From Gammaproteobacteria bacterium (GTDB lineage Bacteria; Pseudomonadota; Gammaproteobacteria; SG8-11), in contig JAHECY010000016.1 in assembly GCA_024641505.1 (NCBI GenBank), positions 1-52,245 of the forward strand: 52,245 bases of DNA, read 5' to 3'. Of this stretch, positions 8,551 to 35,250 are shown piece by piece. Positions within the stretch are counted from its first letter, which is position 1; each line of letters starts with the position of its first letter. The position numbers and the translations under genes are program-made. Under the pieces are notes generated by a model. It saw only the letters and a list, made by a program, of their open reading frames with translations, ran no database searches and was not told the DNA's origin.

Positions 8551-8605
8551 CCTGTTATCCAGTCCCAAATAGCATATTAATTCTGTGTTTCAGCCGGGAG
8601 GTTCC

Positions 8606-9082
8606 ATGCACACTGTTGTGTTAGGCATCGGGAATACATTACAGAAAGATGATGGTATCGGCGTTCATGTTACCAACTATATGCGGCGCCAACTCGGCTT
8701 ACTTCCGGGGGTCAGCTTCATTGACGGTGGTACTCTGAGCTTCACCCTGGCTCACCTGATCGATGATGCGACGGCGTTGGTGGTGGTCGATGCGACGGAA
8801 TTACATCACACACCGGGCACCATGAGCATTTTTCTCGAAGCAGAAATGGATCGCATGCTCTACAACAAAAAGCACTCCAGCGTACATGAGCTGAACCTCA
8901 TGGACTTGCTCGACATTATGCGCATCACCGGCCGTCTCCCCGCGCACCGGGCACTGGTGGCTATCCAACCCGGGGAGATCGACTGGGGTGAAAAGCCTAC
9001 CGCCGCCGTGTGCGCGGCGATTCCCAATGCCAGCGAAGAGATTCTTTTATTACTGCGGGAATGGCAAGCATGCGCGGCTTAG
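8606..9082 (+). CDS. hupD: [NiFe]-hydrogenase maturation protease (HyaD/HupD family)
   Basis: A 158-residue endopeptidase of the M52 family. It removes the C-terminal tail of the hydrogenase large subunit after nickel insertion. The N-terminus 'VVLGIGNTLQKDDGIGV' holds the first metal-binding acidic position, 'FIDGGT' the second Asp and 'SSVHELNL' the His, so the Ni-sensing triad looks complete. The frame is open seven codons further up from a GTG, but a perfect GGGAGG stands 5 bases before the ATG at 8606. It is the first gene of the operon and its end overlaps the next gene by 13 bases. Its expected substrate is HynL, encoded four genes downstream, which carries a cleavable tail. In Thiocapsa the equivalent is called HynD. 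Confidence 0.92.
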   Translation: MHTVVLGIGNTLQKDDGIGVHVTNYMRRQLGLLPGVSFIDGGTLSFTLAHLIDDATALVVVDATELHHTPGTMSIFLEAEMDRMLYNKKHSSVHELNLMDLLDIMRITGRLPAHRALVAIQPGEIDWGEKPTAAVCAAIPNASEEILLLLREWQACAA

Positions 9083-9486
9083 CCGACATTCCGGTGCGCA
9101 TCGCCCGCCATGCCGCACCTGACACCGCACCCTCGCCCCAGGTCGGCGCCTTGCTCCAGGAACTGCACGCCTTGATCACGGCATTGCAGACCACGGAGAA
9201 GGGAGGAACCATCGATATACGTAGTTATCCCTTGTCTCCCCAGGACCGGGAACAACTATATTTAATATTAGGAGAAGGTGAAGTGAGCGCCCGGATTGAT
9301 GCGCTCGGTCCCAGCGAAATACAGGAAACACGGATACCGGGCATCTGGCGCGTCACTCATTACAATGAACACCGAAGTATGCTGACGGAACATGTGGTGG
9401 TAACTCGGATTCCTGACATTCTGATGACGGATCCACGGGATTTGTCATCGAGTCTCGACCAGTTAACAAGGCTGCTCGATCCCTGA
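9070..9486 (+). CDS. HupH/HyaF C-terminal-type hydrogenase formation protein
   Basis: A 138-residue protein matching the C-terminal domain of the HupH/HyaF family ('GTIDIRSYPLSPQDREQL', then 'LGEGEVSARIDALGPSEI', then 'GIWRVTHYN'). Family members help assemble small-subunit Fe-S clusters or act as accessory factors. Full-length HupH proteins are about twice as long and carry a second copy of this domain, so this is a single-domain form. The start at 9070 is chosen because GGGA lies 9 bases upstream; the ATG at 9061 would abut that site. Translation is probably coupled to the protease gene because the genes overlap. It lies 34 bases ahead of the small subunit. Confidence 0.85.
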   Translation: MRGLADIPVRIARHAAPDTAPSPQVGALLQELHALITALQTTEKGGTIDIRSYPLSPQDREQLYLILGEGEVSARIDALGPSEIQETRIPGIWRVTHYNEHRSMLTEHVVVTRIPDILMTDPRDLSSSLDQLTRLLDP

Positions 9487-9520: not shown

Positions 9521-10609
9521 ATGAACCAAGAAGATACCATCGCTGCGCTGCTGGCCAGACAAGGTGTCAGCCGGCGCGGTTTTTTGAAGTTTTGCACGTC
9601 GTTGGCGTCACTCATGGCATTGCCACCCGCCATGGTGCCGATGATCGCCCAGGCCCTGGAAAAAGCGCGACGCCCGTCGGTTATTTGGTTGTCCTTTCAG
9701 GAATGTACCGGTTGCACTGAATCTCTCACCCGTTCCCATACACCCAGCGTTGAAAGCTTGATTCTGGATGCCGTGTCCCTGGATTATCACCATACTCTAC
9801 AAGCGGCCGCGGGCACGGCGGCGGAAGCCGCCCGGGTACAGGCGATGGAGCAGGCCTATGGCAAATACCTGTTGATCGTCGATGGCTCCGTTCCATTGAA
9901 AGACAATGGGGTCTATTCCACCATCGCCGGTATCAGTAACGTGAGCATGTTGCAGGAAGTGGCCAAGGGAGCCGCGGCCATCATTGCGGTGGGTACCTGT
10001 GCCGCCTACGGCGGCATCGGCCATGCGCAACCCAATCCCACCGGCGCGGAACCGGTGACGGCCGTGATCCACGACAAGCCGATTGTCAATATTCCCGGTT
10101 GCCCGCCGATCCCGGTGGTCATCACCGGGGTGCTGGCCCACTATCTTACTTTCGGCACCCTGCCCGCGCTGGATAAACTGCACCGACCTTTATCGTTCTA
10201 CGGTGACACCATCCATGACCGCTGCTACCGGCGGCCGTTCTACGATCAGGGTAAATTCGCCAAGACTTTCGACGATGCCGGGGCACGCAATGGTTGGTGC
10301 CTGTATGAGCTGGGATGCAAAGGTCCGGTCACCCACAATGCCTGCGCCACGGAAAAATGGAATAACGGGGTCAGCTTTCCCATTCAATCCGGACATCCCT
10401 GCCTGGGTTGTTCGGAACCGGATTTCTGGGACGGCGGTGGATTTTACCGGCCGTTACCGGCCCCGGAAACCAACATCGGTAAAGTCGCGGTGGCCGCGGT
10501 CGCCGCGGGAGTCGCCGGCGGTGTGGCGTTTGGACTCTATGATCATCAAAAACGGAAAAAGGCGGCACGGCAACACGAAAAAATCACCACCAAGGACATG
10601 GCGCCATGA
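9521..10609 (+). CDS. hynS: [NiFe]-hydrogenase small subunit, Tat-exported (Isp-type, group 1e)
   Basis: A 362-residue Fe-S subunit that carries electrons from the Ni-Fe site. The Tat signal 'SRRGFLKF' is at residues 17-24. Cysteines for three clusters are present: 'ECTGCTES' (C62, C65), 'GTCAAYGG' and 'PGCPPIP' for the proximal cluster, then distal and medial ligands in 'CYRRPF', 'CLYELGCKG' and 'GHPCLGC'. The extra cysteines that mark O2-tolerant group 1d enzymes are missing at the proximal site (CTGC, not CTCC). A C-terminal helix ('VAAVAAGVAGGVAFGLY') followed by a basic tail anchors it in the membrane. Start: TAAGGAGGGG just upstream of the ATG. It overlaps isp1 by four bases. The order hynS-isp1-isp2-hynL is the signature of this hydrogenase class. 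Confidence 0.96.
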   Translation: MNQEDTIAALLARQGVSRRGFLKFCTSLASLMALPPAMVPMIAQALEKARRPSVIWLSFQECTGCTESLTRSHTPSVESLILDAVSLDYHHTLQAAAGTAAEAARVQAMEQAYGKYLLIVDGSVPLKDNGVYSTIAGISNVSMLQEVAKGAAAIIAVGTCAAYGGIGHAQPNPTGAEPVTAVIHDKPIVNIPGCPPIPVVITGVLAHYLTFGTLPALDKLHRPLSFYGDTIHDRCYRRPFYDQGKFAKTFDDAGARNGWCLYELGCKGPVTHNACATEKWNNGVSFPIQSGHPCLGCSEPDFWDGGGFYRPLPAPETNIGKVAVAAVAAGVAGGVAFGLYDHQKRKKAARQHEKITTKDMAP

Positions 10610-11271
10610 CCATGAGCGACTTGGAATTACTGGCATGGCTGCGCGGCCCGGGGCTGCAATGGTCCTTGATTATCTTTATCGCCGGCTTGATTTTCCGTGT
10701 CGCGGAGAATCTTGCCCTGGGCCGCACGCCTGATCTGGCGACACCCCGAAGCCCGGTGTTTGCCGCCGGCTTGGCCACCGTATGGCGCCGTTCTCTGTTT
10801 CACCCGGGCATGAGTTATCGGGGGTACTTCACGTTGATCGCGGGTTATACCTTTCATCTGGGACTACTGATCACCCTGTTCTTTCTCAGCCAGCACATCG
10901 TCATGTTTCGCGCCATTCTGGGTTTCGGCTGGCCGGCATTGCCACCGAGTATTATTGATTTCTGTACCTTGCTGAGCATAGCTGCCCTGATCACCATATT
11001 GATCCACCGTATTACCGATCCGGTGGTCCGCAGTATCAGCGACTACCAGGACTATCTGGCCTGGCTGTTGACCCTGCTACCCTTGGCCACGGGTTTTCTC
11101 GCCATGCATCCCCTGGGCATGGCCTATATCCAGGCCCTGACGCTGCACCTGATGAGCGTGGAAGTGTTGCTGATCGCAATACCATTCACCAAACTCAGCC
11201 ACATGGCCAGCATTTTCATATCCCGCTGGTATAACGGCGCCCTGGCCGGAGTTCGAGGCGTAAAAGCATGA
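10606..11271 (+). CDS. isp1: Isp1: NarI/DsrM-like b-type cytochrome membrane subunit
   Basis: A 221-residue integral membrane protein with about five helices and homology style of NarI/DsrM/HdrE. It probably passes electrons between the hydrogenase and quinones. Candidate haem-b histidines are in 'GYTFHLGLLITLFFLSQH' and in 'LTLHLMSVEVLL...TKLSH', about 14 residues apart within helices as in NarI. It starts inside the end of hynS (ATGA) and ends inside the start of isp2 (four bases), so all three are translationally coupled. Thiocapsa and Allochromatium have the same gene at this place, and deletion of isp genes there impairs hydrogenase function (established knowledge). It replaces the HupC/HyaC cytochrome b of other uptake hydrogenases. 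Confidence 0.92.
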   Translation: MTMSDLELLAWLRGPGLQWSLIIFIAGLIFRVAENLALGRTPDLATPRSPVFAAGLATVWRRSLFHPGMSYRGYFTLIAGYTFHLGLLITLFFLSQHIVMFRAILGFGWPALPPSIIDFCTLLSIAALITILIHRITDPVVRSISDYQDYLAWLLTLLPLATGFLAMHPLGMAYIQALTLHLMSVEVLLIAIPFTKLSHMASIFISRWYNGALAGVRGVKA

Positions 11272-12539
11272 CCGCCCTGGCCGCTAAAGCCATCAATGCA
11301 TTTCTGGAGCAAATCGACGCGCCCACCGCCAGCTTTTTCACCAGTTGTACCCATTGCGGCATGTGCGCCGATGCGTGTTTGTTCTATACGGAAACCCAGG
11401 ACCCCAAGTACACACCCATCCATAAATTATTGCCTTTGCGACGCATCTGGCAGCAGGAGTACACCTTCTGGGGCTGGTTGATGAAAACACTCGGCCTGAG
11501 CCGCAAAGTCAGCGACGAGGATCTTAGCCAATGGGAGGAACTGGTATATGACAGCTGTACCTTGTGTGGCCGTTGTTCCCTGGTGTGCCCCATGGGAAAT
11601 GACATCACGTATATGATACGTAAAATGCGCGAAGGCATGGTCGCCGCCGGCCATGCTCCCGAAGGTTTAAAAGGCGCCATGGTGCGCGCCATGGAAACCG
11701 GCAGTCCCATGGGCGTGACCCTGCAAACCCTCAAGGCGCAGATCGTACATGCGGAACAGGAAACAGGCCTGAAGATCCCGCTGGATAAATCGGGAGCGGA
11801 ATTTCTGATGTTGCTGTCCTCGGCGGAAATCGCGCAATTTTCCGAAATCATCGGCGCCGTGGCGCGCATCTTCCATCAGGCCGGCGTGTCCTGGACCCTC
11901 AGTTCCAAGGCGTTCGAAGCCACCAATACCGGTATTCAAATCGGTGCGGCGGATCTGGCGGCGGAACTCGTCGAACGCATCATCAGCGCCGCCGAGTCAT
12001 TACAGGTAAAGACCGTGATTTCGCCCGAATGCGGTCACGCCTATGTCGCCCTGCGCTATGAAGGGCCCAATCTGGTGGGTCGGCCGTATCCGTTCAAGGT
12101 CATGCACATCGTGGAAGTGCTCGATCAATTACGACGGGAAAACCGCCTGCCGATCAAGGATCGGGAAACCACCCGCATGACGTTTCACGATCCCTGCCAG
12201 TTGGTGCGCCGGGGCGGTCTGGAGCAACCGCCGCGCGCTCTGCTGGCACTGGTGGCGGACAATTATGTGGAGATGCGGGAACACGGTATTTATAACTGGT
12301 GTTGCGGTGGCGGTGGTGGCGTGAGCGCCAATGAACGCGCCACACCTTTGCGGCTCAAGGTGTTCAGCCGCAAAAAGCAGCAAGTCGACGCACTGGGTGT
12401 GACTACCATCGTTACCGCCTGTTCCAACTGTCGCAATATGTTGGAAGATGGCCTGGAACACTACCACATGGATATCAACGTTGTCGGCCTGACGGAGACC
12501 CTGGCACGGCATCTGGACACCACATCGACAGGAGCATAG
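11268..12539 (+). CDS. isp2: Isp2: heterodisulfide-reductase-like (HdrD/DsrK) Fe-S subunit
   Basis: A 423-residue cytoplasmic or peripheral protein. Two 4Fe-4S ferredoxin motifs come first (C27, C30, C33, C37 and C97, C100, C103, C107). Two CCG-type domains follow: the first around 'SPECGHAY', the second with 'FHDPC', 'CCGGGGG' (C345, C346) and 'ACSNC', the ligands of the unusual cluster in HdrB/DsrK. The layout is that of HdrD, DsrK and GlpC-type proteins. In Isp-type hydrogenases it pairs with Isp1 and could catalyse thiol/disulfide or quinone chemistry; the real substrate is unsettled. It overlaps isp1 by four bases and lies three bases before hynL. All expected cysteines except part of the first CCG set are clearly visible. 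Confidence 0.94.
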   Translation: MTALAAKAINAFLEQIDAPTASFFTSCTHCGMCADACLFYTETQDPKYTPIHKLLPLRRIWQQEYTFWGWLMKTLGLSRKVSDEDLSQWEELVYDSCTLCGRCSLVCPMGNDITYMIRKMREGMVAAGHAPEGLKGAMVRAMETGSPMGVTLQTLKAQIVHAEQETGLKIPLDKSGAEFLMLLSSAEIAQFSEIIGAVARIFHQAGVSWTLSSKAFEATNTGIQIGAADLAAELVERIISAAESLQVKTVISPECGHAYVALRYEGPNLVGRPYPFKVMHIVEVLDQLRRENRLPIKDRETTRMTFHDPCQLVRRGGLEQPPRALLALVADNYVEMREHGIYNWCCGGGGGVSANERATPLRLKVFSRKKQQVDALGVTTIVTACSNCRNMLEDGLEHYHMDINVVGLTETLARHLDTTSTGA

Positions 12540-12542
12540 ACC

Positions 12543-14306
12543 ATGAACCAGCGTGTCGTTGTCGACCCCATCACCCGTATCGAAGGACATTTGCGCATTG
12601 AAGCGAAAACCGATAACGATACCATTACCGAGGCCTGGTCGTCGGGCACCATGGTGCGGGGTATCGAAATTATTCTGCGCGGCCGAGATCCCCGGGACGC
12701 CTGGGCATTTACCCAGCGATTCTGTGGTGTGTGCACTTTAGTACATGCCATTGCCTCGATCCGGGCGGTGGAAAACGCCCTGCATTACACCATTCCCCCC
12801 AATGCCCAGTTGATCCGCAACCTGATGATCGGCGCGCAATATGTGCACGATCATGTCATGCACTTCTATCATCTGCATGCCCTGGACTGGGTGGACGTGG
12901 TGTCTGCACTGAAGGCCGACCCCAAGGGCACCTCGGCATTGGCGCAAGCCGTCAGTCCTTCCAACCCACGAACCTCTCCGGGGTACTTTGCTGATATCCA
13001 GAAAAGAGTGAAAACATTCGTGGAAACCGGTCAACTGGGCATTTTCGCAAATGGCTATTGGGGCCACCCGGCCTACAAGTTGCCTCCGGAGGCGAACCTC
13101 ATGGCGGTCGCCCATTATCTGGAAGCACTGGAATGGCAACGCAATGTGGTGCAGATACACACTATCCTGGGGGGCAAGAATCCTCATCCCAATTTTCTGG
13201 TGGGGGGCGCGCCCGCGGCCATCAGCATCGACCCCAGCGGCGCGGCGCAATCGGATTCTGCCCTGGGCGGCGCCAGTGCCACGGCCTTGAACCAACGGGG
13301 GTTGCAGGAAATCCAGAACGTCATCAATAATATGAAAACCTTCGTCGATCAGATCTATGTACCGGATACCCTGGCCATCGCCGGTTTCTACAAAGAATGG
13401 GCGCACCAGGGCGAAGGTACCGGCAATTTTCTCACTTATGGTGATTTTCCCTCCGGGGATACCGACGATGTCAGCAATTTGCTGGTACCTCGGGGCGCGA
13501 TCCTGAACCGTAACCTCAACGAGGTGCTGCCGGTGGACTTTGATGATCCGGAACAGATTCAGGAATATGTCAGTCATTCCTGGTACCACTATCAGGGCGG
13601 CAAGGATCAAGGCTTGCATCCCTACGTGGGAGAAACCGAACTCCACTATGATGGTCCGCAACCGCCCTATGATTACCTGAACGTGGACCAATCCTACTCC
13701 TGGCTCAAAGCGCCGCGCTGGCGTGGCAAGCCCATGGAAGTAGGTCCCCTGGCCCGGGTGCTCATGCTCTATGCCAAAGGCCATGAACCGACGCGGGAAC
13801 TGGCACAAATGGCCCTGAGTAAACTGGACCTGCCCATCGAAGCCATGTTTTCCACCCTGGGTCGTACCGCCGCCCGTACCCTGGAAACCAAGTTGTTTGC
13901 CGATGCCTTGCAAGGCTGGCAGGATCAACTCATCGCCAATATCAAAGCCGGCGATTTGCGCACATTCAACGACACCTTGTGGGAACCCTCCACCTGGCCC
14001 CGGGAAGCCAGAGGTGCCGGGTATATGGAAGCCCCGCGTGGCGCGCTGGCGCACTGGATCGTGATCAAGGATGGCAAGATCGATAATTATCAGGCCGTGG
14101 TGCCCAGCACCTGGAACGCCGGGCCCCGTGACGCCATGAATCAACCCGGACCGTATGAAGCCGCCCTCGTGGGTCACAAACTGGTGGACCCGAAGCAACC
14201 GGTGGAAATCCTGCGCACCATACACAGTTTTGATCCGTGTATTGCCTGTGCAGTGCATGTTACAGACCCGGACGGCGAAGAATTAGTGCGCGTAAAAATA
14301 TTATAA
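12543..14306 (+). CDS. hynL: [NiFe]-hydrogenase large subunit (group 1e)
   Basis: A 587-residue catalytic subunit that oxidises H2. The L1 motif begins with 'ITRIEGHLRI' near residue 12 and holds 'RFCGVC' with Ni ligands C61 and C64. The L2 motif 'DPCIACAVH' gives C566, C569 and H572. A 15-residue tail starting with Val follows H572 and must be removed by the maturation protease. The isp2-hynL gap is three bases, so expression is coupled. The subunit lacks a signal of its own and is co-exported with HynS. The order with isp1 and isp2 between the two subunits, plus the sequence style, places it in group 1e with the Thiocapsa and Allochromatium enzymes. Group assignment needs a tree; the enzyme identity is firm. 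Confidence 0.97.
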   Translation: MNQRVVVDPITRIEGHLRIEAKTDNDTITEAWSSGTMVRGIEIILRGRDPRDAWAFTQRFCGVCTLVHAIASIRAVENALHYTIPPNAQLIRNLMIGAQYVHDHVMHFYHLHALDWVDVVSALKADPKGTSALAQAVSPSNPRTSPGYFADIQKRVKTFVETGQLGIFANGYWGHPAYKLPPEANLMAVAHYLEALEWQRNVVQIHTILGGKNPHPNFLVGGAPAAISIDPSGAAQSDSALGGASATALNQRGLQEIQNVINNMKTFVDQIYVPDTLAIAGFYKEWAHQGEGTGNFLTYGDFPSGDTDDVSNLLVPRGAILNRNLNEVLPVDFDDPEQIQEYVSHSWYHYQGGKDQGLHPYVGETELHYDGPQPPYDYLNVDQSYSWLKAPRWRGKPMEVGPLARVLMLYAKGHEPTRELAQMALSKLDLPIEAMFSTLGRTAARTLETKLFADALQGWQDQLIANIKAGDLRTFNDTLWEPSTWPREARGAGYMEAPRGALAHWIVIKDGKIDNYQAVVPSTWNAGPRDAMNQPGPYEAALVGHKLVDPKQPVEILRTIHSFDPCIACAVHVTDPDGEELVRVKIL

Positions 14307-14330: not shown

Positions 14331-14534
14331 ATGCGATTGATGATGATTACTGCGTGTTTGGGCTTATTGGGCACCGGTAGTGCCTATGGACACTCGGGCA
14401 CCCATGACATGAACTGGCAACAAGCCTTGTGGCACATCCTGACTCAAGGGGATCATCTGGGGCTGCTATTGGTGGTGATCTTACTGGTTATAACCCTGGT
14501 TGCCGCCTTCAACATGCGGCATCACGGACTGTAG
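14331..14534 (+). CDS. Small membrane protein after hynL, HupE-N-terminus-like
   Basis: A 67-residue protein with a signal-like N-terminus ('MITACLGLLGTGSAYG'), a His-rich start of the mature part ('HSGTHDMNW') and one membrane helix ('LLLVVILLVITLVAAF'). The piece 'GHSGTHD...WHILTQGDHLGLLL' recalls the beginning of HupE/UreJ nickel permeases, where an 'H-G-H' stretch precedes 'HPLTGLDHLL', but only one helix is present instead of six. It follows hynL after 24 bases with a GGGGAG ribosome site, so it belongs to the operon. Possible roles are nickel handling or membrane anchoring of the hydrogenase complex; neither is shown. The gene is well supported; the function is a guess. Confidence 0.75.
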   Translation: MRLMMITACLGLLGTGSAYGHSGTHDMNWQQALWHILTQGDHLGLLLVVILLVITLVAAFNMRHHGL

Positions 14535-14679
14535 GGTGCGTATTACGCACCGCTGTATTACGACCGGATAACAGGATTTTGGTCACACCACGGGAGCCGG
14601 TGCGTCAAACGCACCGCTGTGTTATGACCGGATAACAGGGGTTTGTTCAAGCCGCAAGAACCGGTGCGTTATACGCACC
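14535..14679 (+). repeat. 64-bp tandem repeat, 2.3 copies, each starting with a GGTGCGT palindrome
   Basis: Unit 1 is 14535-14598, unit 2 is 14599-14662 and a partial unit 3 is 14663-14679. Each full copy starts with GGTGCGTnnnACGCACC, a short inverted repeat, followed by a common part with GACCGGATAACAGG. The array begins directly at the stop of the small membrane protein and ends 42 bases before the prenyltransferase start. It may form RNA hairpins that separate expression of hydrogenase and prenyltransferase. Confidence 0.9.
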
Positions 14680-14721
14680 CGAGGCGTCGTTCACGATATG
14701 GAATCAGAGGAGATGACCCAT

Positions 14722-15663
14722 ATGCACCTTCCACAGACTTTCTTACATCTGCACGATGCCGCGCCGAAACATTATCTGCTGGCTACCCGGCCGATGTTTT
14801 TCGCTGCCTCCGTGCTCCCGGTGCTATCGGGAACCGCGCTGGGCTATCAGCTGAGCGGTGAACTGGATGGTCTGGCGCTGTGCCTTGCCCTGATTGCCAT
14901 CATCCTGGTCAACGGCGGCATCAACGTCCTCAATGATGTCTACGATGACATCAATGGCACCGACCGGGTAAACACCGATCGTGTTGCGCCTTTTACCGGT
15001 GGTTCACGCAGCATTCAAGACGGCATCCTGGACCGTGATCAGATGCGTACCTGGGGAGTATTACTGCTGCTGGGAGCGTTAACGACCGGTGTTCTGTTAA
15101 CCTGGTACAAGGGGTGGGAAGTGCTGTTCCTGGGTTTCGCTGGCATCTTTCTAGGCGTCGGCTATTCCCTGCCGCCGCTGCAACTCGGCAGCCGTGGCAT
15201 GGGTGAGACCGCAGTGGCTCTGGGGGTAGGAGTGTTGCCGGTCACCGGCGCCGCCTGGCTGCAAACGGGGAACTTCACCTGGGTTTCGCTGTTGCTCGCC
15301 GTGCCTGTCAGTCTTTGGGTGATGAACATATTGCTGGTCAACGACATTCCCGATACTCAGGCCGACGCCAGCGTAGGTAAACGTACCCTCGCGGTGCGCC
15401 TCGGCGTAGCGCGCGCAGTGTCGATCTATTTAGCGGCGAACATCGTCGCTTTTATCGCCGTCAGCATGCTCGCGCTATTTGGCTATGTTCCCACGTGGAC
15501 GATTGTGGTGCCGCTGGTGATGCTACTGCCTGCATTTATCTCAGCGCCTGCCGTGCGACGTTGGCCCGAAGACAAATTTGGCATGCGCAATGCCATCCGC
15601 ATTACCATAGCCATCCACGTGGTCAACGGCCTTTGGCTGGCGCTATGGCTGGGGCAGACCTAG
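14722..15663 (+). CDS. UbiA-family prenyltransferase (MenA-like)
   Basis: A 313-residue polytopic protein of the UbiA superfamily with about nine helices. The first Asp-rich motif is 'NVLNDVYDDINGTD' and the second is 'NDIPDTQAD', both needed for Mg-diphosphate binding. The family transfers polyprenyl chains to aromatic acceptors in quinone (MenA, UbiA), haem O or chlorophyll synthesis. 'GGSRSIQDG' after the first motif and the overall layout are closest in style to MenA-like proteins. The upstream ATG codons at 14698 and 14713 are less likely, since AGGAG is nine bases from the ATG at 14722. It is followed 39 bases later by the multihaem cytochrome. A role in making a low-potential quinone for H2 oxidation is an inference. 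Confidence 0.88.
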   Translation: MHLPQTFLHLHDAAPKHYLLATRPMFFAASVLPVLSGTALGYQLSGELDGLALCLALIAIILVNGGINVLNDVYDDINGTDRVNTDRVAPFTGGSRSIQDGILDRDQMRTWGVLLLLGALTTGVLLTWYKGWEVLFLGFAGIFLGVGYSLPPLQLGSRGMGETAVALGVGVLPVTGAAWLQTGNFTWVSLLLAVPVSLWVMNILLVNDIPDTQADASVGKRTLAVRLGVARAVSIYLAANIVAFIAVSMLALFGYVPTWTIVVPLVMLLPAFISAPAVRRWPEDKFGMRNAIRITIAIHVVNGLWLALWLGQT

Positions 15664-15702: not shown

Positions 15703-16530
15703 ATGCTGCGCTGGTTAATGTCGCCGAGCTCCCGCTTCTCGATCCTGACCCTCATCATCCTCGGCCTGGTGGTCGGAGTCACCGGCACGGTGTTTACCCT
15801 GGTAACCGTGGAGGCCACCGGCAGCAACGCTTTCTGCCTGAATTGCCACGAAATGCAAACCGTTTACGATGAATATACGAAATCGAGTCACTACACCAAC
15901 AGCAGCGGCGTCAACGCCGCGTGTGCCGATTGTCACTTGCCCCATCACTATCCCGAAAAACTGATCGTCAAGACTCTGCGACTGGCGGAAGTCTGGTATC
16001 ACCTGCGTGGTACCATTAATAGTGTGCAGAAATTTGAAGACAAGCGCTCGACGCTGGCGGCATCGGTGTGGAAGGAATTGGCGCAAAACGACGCAGCACC
16101 CTGTCGCGCCTGCCATGATGCGCAGCGCATGAACCAGGCTGAGCAAAGCCAACATGCCCGCAAGGCCCATGCCCGGGCGCGGCGCACGGCACGTGTTTGC
16201 ATCGACTGCCATATCGGCCTGGCTCACAACCTGCCTCCAATGACACAACTGCCCGAGGCTCAAGCTGCCGGTGACGACGCGCCGGTTGTTTGTAACGGTT
16301 GTCATGCGGACTTCAGTCTGGCGTTGGCGGACAATCACCCGGCGGTATCGGAACCCGTCCTGAAAAAATGTTTTGTATGTCATGTTCCCGGCATTGGGGC
16401 GCGTGCCAAAAACAGCTACTTTGTGTTCCTGCATGCCAGCCACAAACAACGTTTGTCGTGCGTCGCCTGTCACGAAGCGAATGCGTTGCAGGGCATGAAA
16501 CTGCGAGGATATTCACCACCGGCGCCCTAG
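15703..16530 (+). CDS. NapC/NirT-like quinol dehydrogenase cytochrome with seven haem-c sites
   Basis: A 275-residue protein with one N-terminal anchor (about residues 14-36) and seven CxxCH motifs at C45, C74, C134, C166, C197, C223 and C253. The first four, with the 'NAFCLNCHEMQTV' beginning and 'ACADCHLPH', match the tetrahaem NapC/NirT/CymA module that takes electrons from quinol. The last three are packed into 60 residues with extra His residues and resemble a c3/c7 or flavocytochrome-type electron carrier. TorC-like relatives have five haems, so seven is unusual. AGGTGG stands just before the start. It faces the hyp operon tail to tail. It probably passes electrons from quinol to periplasmic partners; direct electron exchange with the hydrogenase is another possibility. 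Confidence 0.92.
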   Translation: MLRWLMSPSSRFSILTLIILGLVVGVTGTVFTLVTVEATGSNAFCLNCHEMQTVYDEYTKSSHYTNSSGVNAACADCHLPHHYPEKLIVKTLRLAEVWYHLRGTINSVQKFEDKRSTLAASVWKELAQNDAAPCRACHDAQRMNQAEQSQHARKAHARARRTARVCIDCHIGLAHNLPPMTQLPEAQAAGDDAPVVCNGCHADFSLALADNHPAVSEPVLKKCFVCHVPGIGARAKNSYFVFLHASHKQRLSCVACHEANALQGMKLRGYSPPAP

Positions 16531-16540
16531 GTACGCGGCG

Positions 16541-16632
16541 CGTAACACAGCGGCACTGCGTGCGGGGTGGTTATAACGCACCGGTTTTTGGAAGCGACAA
16601 CGAAGACTACAATACCGGTGCGTCATACGCAC
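16541..16632 (-). repeat. Diverged, inverted copy of the GGTGCGT repeat
   Basis: TAACACAGCGG at 16543-16553 is the exact reverse complement of 14614-14624 in repeat unit 2. It is followed by AACGCACCGG (16575-16584), and a second palindromic block CCGGTGCGTCATACGCAC lies at 16615-16632. The copy is decayed and interrupted but has opposite orientation to the array at 14535. The two together bracket the prenyltransferase and cytochrome genes. The region also separates two convergent transcripts. Confidence 0.6.
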
Positions 16633-16688
16633 TCTGCATTGCTTGCCCCTGATGCGTACCCACGGAGGTTATTACACAGTCTCGCCCC

Positions 16689-18968
16689 CTATCGGAGGCT
16701 TTGATCGCGAGTCGTGGCGGCTGCAAAATGACTGTGCACGATCTGTCCGAACGCCAGACCGCCGTCGTTTACCGGCAGACGTTCCGGCAGATAACACCGC
16801 AGCCCGGCACCCTGCAACAAATCCATGACACGCCCGGCAAGCAAACGATTTTGAAATACGCCACCGGTCAGCCCCACCGCAAATTCCCCGGCGAATTTTT
16901 TTAGCATCAGGGCCTGTTGCAGCAGGGCATGCGCCAGTGTCTCATGAAAACAACGCGCCCGCAGCGTCGGTGGCAAACGGGTGTCGGTTAACACCGGCAA
17001 CAAGGGTTGCCAATCGGTAATCCAGGTCCCCTGCTGATTACGGGTTAAAGGCAATGCTATGAATTCCGCATCGCCCTCTGCGGCCAAGGCTTCCAGCTCC
17101 ATCGGCCCCTGGCCCTCAAAACTGCTCTGGTGTCGTTGCATGATCAATGCTGCCGCGGCATCGAACAAACGGCCTACCGCGGAGCTTTGGGCGCAGTTGA
17201 GATGCTTTTCCCAGGCTTGGCGCACCAACTCGGCACTGGCGATGGGTGCTTGCCAAGAAACGCGGGTCTCCCAACACAGGGCGGCGGCACTGCGCCATGG
17301 TTCGCGACCGGCCCGATCGCCGCCCGGCAAGCGAAACGGCCGCATGCTCGCTGCGCGTTGCCAGTGTCCGGCTTCGCCCAACAACGCTTCTCCGCCCCAT
17401 AAGGTCTGATCCGCACCCATACCGGTGCCATCCCAGGTAAATACCAGCCAACGCTGTTCCTGGGGATATTCCCCCGCAACGGCGCTGGCGTGGGCGTGAT
17501 GATGCAATACCAGGCTTAGCGGCAAGCCGGTGTTACGCGCCCAACGGCTGCTGCCATAGTCCGGATGGGCGTCGCATACCACACGCTCCGCCGTTACCTG
17601 ATACAAGTGTTGCAAATCCTCAACGACTTGTGCGAATACATTGCGGCTGCGCGGCGCATCCAGATCCCCGATATGCGGTGACACCACGATACGCCGATCC
17701 CAGGCCAGGGCCACGGTGTTTTTCATGTGACCGCCGGTGGCTAAAGTTGGCGACGCCACGGTAAACGGTAAGTCGATTTCCAGGGGGCTGTTACCACGCC
17801 CCAAGCGCAATGGCCGGACTTTTCCGGCGATATCTCGATATACCGCATCATCGGCAGGGCGCACGATGGCCCGGTTATGATGCAGGCACGCGTCGAACAC
17901 ATGGTCCAGACGTTGATGCACGCTCAAATTGTCGGTGAGCACCGGCTCGCCGCTGATATTGGCGGACGTCGCCACCAGTGGCCCCGGAAAATGGTGTAAT
18001 AACAGGACATGTAACGGGCTATAGGGCAGCATTACGCCGACTTCCCGCAGTCCCGGCGCGATAAGCGCCGACAGCGGATCGGGTTTTCTTTTTTTTATCA
18101 GTACGATAGGATGCACGGGGCCGTGCAAAAACCTCAGTTGTTCTTGGTTCGGCGCCACATAGTCCGGCACCTGCATTGGTGCCAGCATTACCGCCAGGGG
18201 TTTGTGGGGCCGTGGTTTGCGCACGCGTAATCGTTCAACAGCCTGGTCATTACGGGCATCGCACATCAAATGGTAACCCCCCAACCCTTTGACCGCGACA
18301 ATAGCGCCTTCCCGTAACGCCTGTACGCACGCCGCCAACGCCGCGCCGCTCTCATGCTGGTGGAAAAATTTATCCTGATATTCCAAGGCCGGCCCGCACA
18401 CCGGGCAAGCGGTGGGTTCCGCATGAAAACGCCGGTCCTCGGGATCGCTGTATTCGGCCGCGCAGGCTTCACACAGGGGAAATGCCTTCATGGTGGTGTT
18501 GGCGCGATCATACGGCAGCTGTTCGATTAGGGTATAGCGCGGACCGCAATTTGTGCAATTAATGAAAGGATAGTGAAAACGACGATCCAAGGCGGTAAAC
18601 AACTCGGTGCGGCAGCTGGCGCATACCGGCAAGTCGGGAATGATGCGAATATCACACTCCGAAGCGCTGCTGCTGGCACGAATTACGAATTGAGGATAAG
18701 CACGGGTCGCGGTATTCCGGGCCTCTTTAAGAATTGGTGCCGCGTTCATCGGTGCACGAGCCGTCAGATTCTGCTCAAATTGTTGCACATCGCGCGCCCT
18801 ACCCTCCGCATGTATGGCTACCTGGCCAATGCGATTTTCCACCCAGCCGGTGATGCCGAACTCGCTTGCCAGGCGATAAACAAAAGGCCGGAAACCAACG
18901 CCTTGCACGTGACCGCTGAGCAACAGGTAACGCGCATAATGGGCCCCTGAATCCTGATGTTCAATCAT
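16689..18968 (-). CDS. hypF: Carbamoyltransferase HypF
   Basis: A 759-residue enzyme that turns carbamoyl phosphate into the thiocarbamate precursor of the CN ligands of the Ni-Fe site. Domains in order: acylphosphatase ('SGHVQGVGFRPFVYRLA', about residues 15-100), two zinc-finger-like Cys blocks ('CASC', 'CTNCGP', 'CEAC', 'CPVCGP', about 105-190), a YrdC-like domain (about 200-380, 'SANISGEP') and a Kae1-like carbamoyltransferase domain ('HHHAHASAVAGE', 'GTGMGAD', 'TGGVFQNRLL'). The frame extends 58 codons upstream, but the ATG at 18968 overlaps the hypD stop (ATGA) and gives the usual N-terminus. It is the last gene of the hypCABDF operon. Length and motifs are normal. Confidence 0.97.
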   Translation of the reverse strand: MIEHQDSGAHYARYLLLSGHVQGVGFRPFVYRLASEFGITGWVENRIGQVAIHAEGRARDVQQFEQNLTARAPMNAAPILKEARNTATRAYPQFVIRASSSASECDIRIIPDLPVCASCRTELFTALDRRFHYPFINCTNCGPRYTLIEQLPYDRANTTMKAFPLCEACAAEYSDPEDRRFHAEPTACPVCGPALEYQDKFFHQHESGAALAACVQALREGAIVAVKGLGGYHLMCDARNDQAVERLRVRKPRPHKPLAVMLAPMQVPDYVAPNQEQLRFLHGPVHPIVLIKKRKPDPLSALIAPGLREVGVMLPYSPLHVLLLHHFPGPLVATSANISGEPVLTDNLSVHQRLDHVFDACLHHNRAIVRPADDAVYRDIAGKVRPLRLGRGNSPLEIDLPFTVASPTLATGGHMKNTVALAWDRRIVVSPHIGDLDAPRSRNVFAQVVEDLQHLYQVTAERVVCDAHPDYGSSRWARNTGLPLSLVLHHHAHASAVAGEYPQEQRWLVFTWDGTGMGADQTLWGGEALLGEAGHWQRAASMRPFRLPGGDRAGREPWRSAAALCWETRVSWQAPIASAELVRQAWEKHLNCAQSSAVGRLFDAAAALIMQRHQSSFEGQGPMELEALAAEGDAEFIALPLTRNQQGTWITDWQPLLPVLTDTRLPPTLRARCFHETLAHALLQQALMLKKFAGEFAVGLTGGVFQNRLLAGRVMDLLQGAGLRCYLPERLPVNDGGLAFGQIVHSHFAAATTRDQSLR

Positions 18969-20080
18969 GCGGACACCGTGGGTGCAGTTGGTGCCCGCAG
19001 CCCTCCGCTCCACCAGATTCGACAGGCGCCTTCTTCGGATACCATGCACGGTCCGACCGGGTTGCGGGGCGTGCATGCACGCCCATAAAGTCGACATGCG
19101 TTCGGATAAATGCGCCCCAGTACCACACGCGCGCAATCGCATCCCGGCGGCATAGCGCCTGCGCGTTTGCGTTGTGTATGGTCCACGGTATGCGCGAACA
19201 GCACGCGGGCATCATGGGCACGGTAGGCGGCTTGTAACGTGAATCCGGAGGCCGGAATAATACCTACGCCACGCCAGTTAGCGTCAGTGACACTAAAAAC
19301 ATCCTGCAAAATCTCCTGGGCCCGATGATTTCCCGTGTTGCTGACCACGGTGCCATAACAATTGTCGAGAAACACTTTACCGGATTCGAGTTGTCTTAAT
19401 ATTGAATAGAAAGCCGCCAACAGGCTCTCGGCCGTGAACCCAGCCACCGCGGTTGGAATGTGATAATGTTGCGGCACGAATTCCCATTCTTGCGCGCCCA
19501 TTACCGTGGATACGTGCCCCGGCGCCACCAAACCGTGAAAACCCGGTGTATCGCTCGCCAATAACATAGCGACCGCCGGCCAGGTCAAACGACCCGACAG
19601 CAGCAGACTGAGATTCTCAGGCATGCCGGCGGCCACCATGGCCGCAACCGGCGCCATGGTGGTTTCGAAACCGGCGGCAAAAAATACCACGTGCTTGTCT
19701 GGAACCGCATGCGCCAAAGCAATGGCTTCCTGCGGTGACGCAATGGGGCGAATATCAGCGCCGGCGGCCCGCGCCTGTTCCAGGGTATGTGCCTCACCCT
19801 TGGGCACGTTAACCGGTACGCGCAACATATCACCGAACGCCACCAGAATAATGTTCTCCTGCAATGCCAACTGGATGGCCTGGTAAACATCTTCTTCCGG
19901 GCACACACAAACCGGGCAGCCGGGGCCGGGAATCAATTCGATAGTCGATGGCAATACACTTCGTAACCCGGCCATGGTGATGGAACGCTCATGACCTCCG
20001 CAGACATTCATGATCCGCGTGCGCTGTGTCAGGTGCAGCGATCGAATTTGTCGCAGCCAATAGGCGGCATCGTGGCTCAT
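18965..20080 (-). CDS. hypD: Hydrogenase maturation scaffold HypD
   Basis: A 371-residue Fe-S protein that, with HypC, holds the iron while CN and CO ligands are attached. Conserved elements are present: 'MNVCGGHE' (C27, H30), 'GPGCPVCVCPEED', 'FAAGFETT', and the C-terminal 4Fe-4S set in 'CDCARV', 'NACRLYGRACTP' and 'GPCMVSEEGAC'. It ends with a short Pro/Ala/Thr tail after the last motif. Start: the ATG at 20080 overlaps the hypB stop (ATGA); an open extension to 20239 covers hypB and is ignored. Coupled on both sides to hypB and hypF. Confidence 0.97.
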   Translation of the reverse strand: MSHDAAYWLRQIRSLHLTQRTRIMNVCGGHERSITMAGLRSVLPSTIELIPGPGCPVCVCPEEDVYQAIQLALQENIILVAFGDMLRVPVNVPKGEAHTLEQARAAGADIRPIASPQEAIALAHAVPDKHVVFFAAGFETTMAPVAAMVAAGMPENLSLLLSGRLTWPAVAMLLASDTPGFHGLVAPGHVSTVMGAQEWEFVPQHYHIPTAVAGFTAESLLAAFYSILRQLESGKVFLDNCYGTVVSNTGNHRAQEILQDVFSVTDANWRGVGIIPASGFTLQAAYRAHDARVLFAHTVDHTQRKRAGAMPPGCDCARVVLGRIYPNACRLYGRACTPRNPVGPCMVSEEGACRIWWSGGLRAPTAPTVSA

Positions 20081-22947: not shown

Positions 22948-23985
22948 TTATGGTGTGATCTGATAGGTTGTGGTCATACCGGCCGCGATATGATCGGCGA
23001 CATGACAATGGAATATCCATTCCCCGGGATTATCAGCGATCATCGTGGCTGACACCATGGATGCAGGTAACAGGTTCACGACGTCGGTACGTACCGTCGC
23101 GGCTTCTGAGCCAACGGTCACGGTTTTACCGTGCCAATGGGGCGTATGCAGATCAACTTCATTACCCATGCCCAGAAGATGCCAGCGTACCGCCGTTTGA
23201 TTTTTTGCGATCAGCCCCTTGAGGTTACCGTAGATGTAGCCGTTCATGGAATGCATCAGCCCCGCCTCTTCCCCCTCCAGTTCATCGAACACAAAAAATG
23301 CGACCACGAATTCCTGGGCTACATCCTTCGGGCTGCCATCTGCTTTAGCCTTGCCTTGTTTGGTGACGATAATCGGACCCAGCAGTCCGGCGTTGGTTTC
23401 AGCCGGCTCATCCACATGGGAGTGATACCACCAGACTTTAGAGCTGGCATCACCTACCGCGGGGCCACTGTCGCCGTCGGCCACCCAATTATAATCATAG
23501 CAAGCACCCGGTTGAATATCGGCGCCGGCGCCGGCCGGAGTACCCGCATTCACCCCGGTATAATGCGCGCCCTCGTCATCTTTGGAGTAGCGTAAGCCAT
23601 GCGGATGCATACCAAAGGCGCCTTTATTGGAGCGATTGCAAAAATGCACCAGCACTTTGTCACCCACCTCCGCGCGTATAATAGGCCCCAGGATACCCAG
23701 CCAAACGGGTTGGGGTTTGGTCACCGTAAATGTCGCGTCCGTGTATTCGATATAACGTATTTTATCGAACACATGACTGTTGGTCCAGGGCTGCGGTATA
23801 TTACACGGTGCCGGTTGGTTCATGCAGTGCACAAGATTTTGACCGCTGGGCGCATAGTCCCATAACACATCCTCGGCCGCGATATAATATTCTCGCAATG
23901 CACCACCGGCCTGCGCTGATGTCGCGATGCTGAAGAATAATAGTGCCGCAATACCGCTGATAATCCATTTTGATCTGTTAAACAT
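22948..23985 (-). CDS. Periplasmic two-domain multicopper oxidase
   Basis: A 345-residue secreted enzyme with a signal peptide cleaved near residue 26 (AQA-GG). All four copper motifs are present: HxH at H127/H129, HSH at H188/H190, HxxHxH at H280/H283/H285 and HCHxxxHxxxxM at H326-C327-H328, H332 and M337. The type 1 copper Cys is only in the second domain, so this is the small laccase-like two-domain class that works as a trimer. It probably oxidises metal ions (Cu(I), Fe(II), Mn(II)) or phenols with O2. It is not a nitrite reductase, whose type 1 site is in domain 1. GGAGG stands before the ATG. It is monocistronic and converges on the unknown coiled-coil gene. Confidence 0.93.
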   Translation of the reverse strand: MFNRSKWIISGIAALLFFSIATSAQAGGALREYYIAAEDVLWDYAPSGQNLVHCMNQPAPCNIPQPWTNSHVFDKIRYIEYTDATFTVTKPQPVWLGILGPIIRAEVGDKVLVHFCNRSNKGAFGMHPHGLRYSKDDEGAHYTGVNAGTPAGAGADIQPGACYDYNWVADGDSGPAVGDASSKVWWYHSHVDEPAETNAGLLGPIIVTKQGKAKADGSPKDVAQEFVVAFFVFDELEGEEAGLMHSMNGYIYGNLKGLIAKNQTAVRWHLLGMGNEVDLHTPHWHGKTVTVGSEAATVRTDVVNLLPASMVSATMIADNPGEWIFHCHVADHIAAGMTTTYQITP

Positions 23986-35224: not shown

Positions 35225-35250
35225 GGTGCGTAGGGTGCGTATCACGCACC
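35225..35250 (+). repeat. GGTGCGT palindromic repeat copy
   Basis: GGTGCGTATCACGCACC (35234-35250), preceded by another GGTGCG at 35225, is the same palindrome type as the units at 14535. It lies in the 303-base gap between the FeoB-like gene and the DUF1439 gene, which converge on it. The rest of the gap (35062-35364) holds nothing recognisable. Confidence 0.75.

Follow-up and report, generated by a model that had tools for sequence, protein, structure and literature searches.

A seven-haem NapC/NirT-type cytochrome encoded with a group 1e-like [NiFe] hydrogenase in Gammaproteobacteria

Complexes such as Tmc and Qrc of sulfate reducers have c3-type subunits. Isp-type hydrogenases occur in many sulfur-metabolising and other bacteria, and to our knowledge the route that electrons take past Isp1 and Isp2 has mostly been modelled rather than demonstrated. 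For Acidithiobacillus, a route from Isp2 to quinone has been proposed (PMC7735108). NapC-type proteins exchange electrons with quinone, as has been established or proposed for relatives (PMC6295460). Their tetrahaem members, the NapC/NirT quinol dehydrogenases, belong to terminal-reductase operons, and the pentahaem cytochrome TorC combines a NapC-type domain with a long C-terminal extension (model of 387 positions) that holds one extra haem. Seven haems are known from the partly NapC-like inner-membrane cytochrome ImcH of Geobacter, which has seven CX2CH motifs, of which only the first three are NapC-like, and three N-terminal transmembrane helices (PMC6295460).

Here we describe a NapC-type cytochrome with four plus three haems that is encoded in a hydrogenase operon of a gammaproteobacterium. 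The window (the whole stretch of 52,245 nucleotides that was analysed) and the remainder of its genome were compared with other genomes, and the features that matter for this comparison are the following.

8585-9082, plus strand: hydrogenase maturation protease (HyaD/HupD; TIGR00072, above cut-off)
9010-9486, plus strand: HupH-like hydrogenase expression protein (PF04809, E 1.3e-26)
9521-10609, plus strand: hydrogenase small subunit HynS (TIGR00391, E 2.9e-129, above cut-off)
10606-11271, plus strand: Isp1, a NarI/TmcC-like membrane cytochrome b (NCBIfam TmcC, 1.6e-36)
11268-12539, plus strand: Isp2, an HdrD/DsrK/TmcB-like iron-sulfur protein (NCBIfam DsrK, 2.4e-68; TmcB, 1.1e-64)
12543-14306, plus strand: [NiFe] hydrogenase large subunit HynL (NCBIfam Ni/Fe-hydrogenase large subunit, E 3e-213)
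14331-14534, plus strand: small membrane-protein ORF of 67 aa, matching in position a 98-aa ORF of genome G304 (weakly similar, E 0.004 from one comparison)
14698-15663, plus strand: UbiA-family prenyltransferase, MenA-like (PF01040, 1e-30; synteny)
15703-16530, plus strand: heptahaem NapC-type cytochrome gene (275 aa, seven CxxCH, one transmembrane helix; PF03264, E 1.6e-56)
15724-16239, plus strand: NapC/NirT domain with four haems, residues 8-179 of the cytochrome (PF03264, E 9.9e-57 in the genome search)
16258-16530, plus strand: three-haem extension, residues 186-275, with CxxCH at 197, 223 and 253 (invariant in four homologues; borderline with PF14537)
16689-19142, minus strand: HypF, convergent (TIGR00143, 1.1e-208)
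after hypF to about 21520, minus strand: hypD, hypB, hypA and hypC-like ORFs (TIGR00073; HypD, HypA and HypC by ORF reading and synteny matches in locus L099)

The heptahaem gene is an intact ORF with an ATG start. Its product has CxxCH motifs at residues 45, 74, 134, 166, 197, 223 and 253, which contain all 14 of its cysteines, and its sole hydrophobic segment lies at the N-terminus (19-residue windows with starts at residues 5-20). Shuffling its residues 20,000 times gave at most two CxxCH, and a check of all other ORFs in the window found none with more than one. The initial annotation, which had placed a NapC-like protein with seven CxxCH here, with four NapC-like haems spanning C45-H170 and three further haems spanning C197-H257, is thus exact in motif count, coordinates and both spans.

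Judged by its profile matches, the protein belongs to the NapC/NirT superfamily as a seven-haem member, and quinol oxidation is predicted for it. PF03264 covers residues 8-179 with 191 bits (Pfam gathering score 24.1), in agreement with the earlier description of a four-haem quinol-dehydrogenase domain followed by three haems, and this is the only PF03264 match that a profile search of the window genome returned. The N-terminal helix as single anchor, haem motifs one to four with their spacing, and the Met two residues past the haem-1 His (CLNCHEM) are shared with the tetrahaem proteins (PF03264, TIGR02161), and in a comparison with solved structures NrfH (2j7a) matched the NapC part with an E value of 2e-5. 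In contrast to the tetrahaem proteins, there are three additional haems and the gene lies in a hydrogenase operon instead of a terminal-reductase operon.

No curated family in Pfam or NCBIfam spans the whole protein, and neither database holds a family with this 4+3 layout, so that the single known seven-haem family with a defined different role, which the initial annotation had considered as a counter-explanation, did not materialise. The NCBIfam models for NapC/NirT, NapC, TorC and NrfH match the region covered by PF03264, but none reaches its cut-off. Membership in the NapC/NirT subfamily TIGR02161 was rejected at 190.5 bits (curated cut-off 310.6), as was membership in NrfH (TIGR03153, 64 vs. 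134 bits), for which the window genome also has no NrfA partner (PF02335). TorC (TIGR02162) was rejected because the protein has seven haems, not five, and reaches 189 of 478 bits, matching the model only over profile positions 5-189; its three extra haems lie within 90 residues. ImcH, as defined in PMC6295460, has three transmembrane helices before the haem region, whereas the heptahaem protein has one transmembrane segment and four NapC-type haems, and was rejected as well. The presence of 4+3 haems on one membrane anchor therefore extends the range of four or five haems covered by the classical NapC/NirT and TorC proteins.

All seven motifs recur in full-length homologues in the gammaproteobacterial MAG G002 (JAUWSG010000192.1; 47% identical) and in G304 (41% identical), and a contig-edge fragment in G003 (JAADIM010000106.1) retains the last four motifs. 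Intact seven-haem homologues with matching gene neighbours are present in two further gammaproteobacterial genomes, so the gene is a product neither of chance nor of misassembly. It is nevertheless rare: 102 of 369 sampled gammaproteobacterial genomes contain a NapC-type match, and among the matches listed, those reaching across the extension come only from the window genome, G002 and G304, i.e. from at least 3 of the 369 genomes, a lower bound with at most six candidates per genome scored. A phylum-level sample of 398 genomes, which overlaps the class sample, contained no further heptahaem case at E <= 1e-58, and a scan of genome contigs gave no match with a single heptahaem sequence and, with the alignment, only the two MAG loci already found. 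The other NapC-type loci examined encode four haems, seldom five or six. In a tree of the NapC part (rooting arbitrary, G304 row on a long branch), the three seven-haem proteins form a clade with support of 100/99, apart from 42 NapC-type rows with four to six haems. We regard the heptahaem protein as a rare, conserved variant of a well-known family, apparently not described before; no paper treating "heptaheme", "NapC" and "hydrogenase" together was found in the literature searched. Both G002 and G304 also carry a separate tetrahaem NapC-type gene, located in G002 beside two cytochrome cd1 nitrite-reductase-like genes (read from the sequence) and adjoining napA-napB in G304, where the heptahaem gene stays with the hydrogenase. 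Thus, the heptahaem protein appears to have its own job in these organisms.

The last four haem motifs are invariant in the four homologues, the other three of which are 40-47% identical to the window protein, and so are the extra histidines 212, 244 and 247 of the extension, which could suffice as the second His ligand for each added haem. The initial annotation likened the extension to a c3/c7 carrier and proposed an HMM check, which was clear for the NapC/NirT part (PF03264) and borderline or below cut-off for the c3/c7 profiles on the isolated extension: PF14537 gave 24.8 bits (cut-off 25), PF14522 20.8 bits (24.8), and TIGR04257 16.1 bits (40). Searched as a whole, the protein reached 41.5 bits with PF14537, but this match is scattered over three stretches. 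The extension resembles the triheme c7 (nanowire_3heme) domain of TIGR04257 in having three CxxCH close together and further His. However, its HxxH pair stands ahead of the last of its haem motifs; in the separate triheme c7 proteins compared, a pair of this kind lies ahead of the first, and in the relatives the genuine c7 is a distinct gene adjoining the heptahaem gene. Because of this placement of the HxxH pair we term the extension class III-like and not a c7 domain; the PF14537 score weakly suggests a resemblance to class III (c3/c7) cytochromes and, no more strongly, the c3/c7 carrier of the initial reading. Descent of the extension from the adjoining c7 was not accepted, as the most similar pair (E 7e-5, composition correction off) owed its score mostly to CxxCH. 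Comparison of the extension with solved structures returned nothing convincing, and an AlphaFold prediction of the heptahaem protein from three sequences had a mean pLDDT of 37.

Gene order and profile matches indicate that the hydrogenase is a group 1e-like (Isp-type) [NiFe] enzyme, with a core order identical to the hynS-isp1-isp2-hynL of group 1e operons (PMC7735108). In the window, this core follows the maturation protease and HupH-like genes and is continued by the 67-aa ORF, the MenA-like gene and the heptahaem gene, towards which the hyp genes converge. This hydrogenase setting, the most telling fact about the protein, is absent from the initial annotation. G304 repeats this order and has a triheme c7 gene directly after the heptahaem gene. 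The G002 contig begins inside HynL and continues with an SRPBCC ORF, the MenA-like gene, the heptahaem gene and a triheme c7 gene, and in G003 the end of the heptahaem gene is likewise followed by a triheme c7 gene. Wherever a homologous locus includes upstream sequence, the MenA-like gene directly precedes the heptahaem gene. In contrast, the region downstream of HynL showed neither a heptahaem nor a MenA-like gene in 20 other genomes with a HynL about 71-78% identical (a few of these stretches being short at contig ends), so that the window differs from these close loci by an added module of MenA-like and heptahaem genes, plus c7 in the relatives. The prenyltransferase and heptahaem genes therefore appear to travel together.

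The cluster combines an Isp hydrogenase and a prenyltransferase with a multihaem cytochrome of the quinone type and a triheme carrier, which suggests a path from H2 via quinone and the heptahaem protein to c7, and with moderate confidence we read the protein as the quinone-linked seven-haem electron outlet of the group 1e-like Isp-type hydrogenase operon. HynSL would oxidise H2, the electrons would pass via Isp1/Isp2 into membrane quinone, and the NapC-type domain with its one-helix anchor would exchange electrons with that quinone pool. Its four haems and the three extra ones may form a single chain that leads electrons off the membrane to soluble triheme c7 carriers in the periplasm, and these could deliver them to a terminal acceptor; quinol binding, the direction of flow, the partners and the acceptor are what we infer in this model. 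A separate c7 gene (TIGR04257) lies directly downstream of the heptahaem gene in all three relatives (G002, G003 and G304). No triheme c7 gene adjoins it in the window, and the window genome encodes seven TIGR04257 domains above cut-off elsewhere, in three clusters (L067 on contig C148, L066 on C94 and L065 on C69). The suggestion that the fusion would skip a separate soluble cytochrome is consequently unsupported, because the relatives keep such a gene immediately next door. As an operon-linked, conserved seven-haem cytochrome of the quinone type, the protein is a concrete and directly testable candidate for the periplasmic outlet of Isp-type hydrogenases.

Electrons might instead flow in reverse, with the three-haem, c3-like end taking them from the hydrogenase in the periplasm and the NapC end passing them to quinone, by analogy with the c3-type subunits of Tmc and Qrc. 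For Isp1 and Isp2 the top-scoring models are TmcC/TmcB, HmcE/HmcF and DsrK, from complexes with a multihaem c subunit, and the weak c3-family similarity of the extension points the same way. However, a separate c7 carrier downstream in the relatives suits an exit, and Isp2 already offers a proposed route to quinone in the Acidithiobacillus model (PMC7735108), and we consider reverse flow unlikely. Less likely still is a function as quinol dehydrogenase for the periplasmic nitrate reductase NapA, given that the conserved linkage in other genomes is to the hydrogenase and that napA-napB of G304 has a napC of its own. Nevertheless, the one NapA of the window genome (contig C112; L132 8078-10567) has no recognisable napB, napC or napD beside it, and with the heptahaem protein as the only PF03264 protein of this genome, it may also serve NapA there. 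In the least probable reading, the protein would oxidise quinol as a gate for extracellular electron transfer and thus function like ImcH or CymA, and the hydrogenase would be one donor among several. The seven TIGR04257 domains, some of them on C148 with an 11-CxxCH protein and a 629-aa secreted-looking protein, could speak for this, but there is no proven porin-cytochrome conduit and the C148 genes are unlinked to the heptahaem gene. The C148 cluster, whose 629-aa protein has no family match, also encodes proteins reading like NHL-repeat and PpiC proteins and is a possible extracellular electron transfer island.

MenB and MqnC mark the two known menaquinone routes. In the window genome, a profile search for MenB gave at best 72 of 343 bits and nothing above cut-off, and MqnC was not found. 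Apart from the MenA-like prenyltransferase of the window, no enzyme of this kind was found in the genome, and the NCBIfam models that match the prenyltransferase best, 1,4-dihydroxy-2-naphthoate prenyltransferases, do so below cut-off. A more far-reaching and quite doubtful extension of the outlet reading would see the UbiA-type prenyltransferase, the seven-haem NapC and the triheme c7 as a co-inherited module through which the group 1e hydrogenase becomes a dedicated line for electrons from H2 to the periplasm, possibly to the outside, supplied with a lipid quinone of its own by the adjacent prenyltransferase where MenB and MqnC were not detected.

Finally, palindromic repeats of the sequence GGTGCGTnnnACGCACC directly flank the prenyltransferase-heptahaem pair, with three copies before it (14535-14680) and two degenerate copies after it (16566-16634). 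One more GGTGCGTnnnACGCACC repeat lies elsewhere in the window, at 35234-35250. The number expected by chance is 0.05, and the repeats are perhaps a REP- or MITE-like element. The window also encodes a short multicopper oxidase-like protein (PF07731, PF07732) at 22948-23985 on the minus strand.
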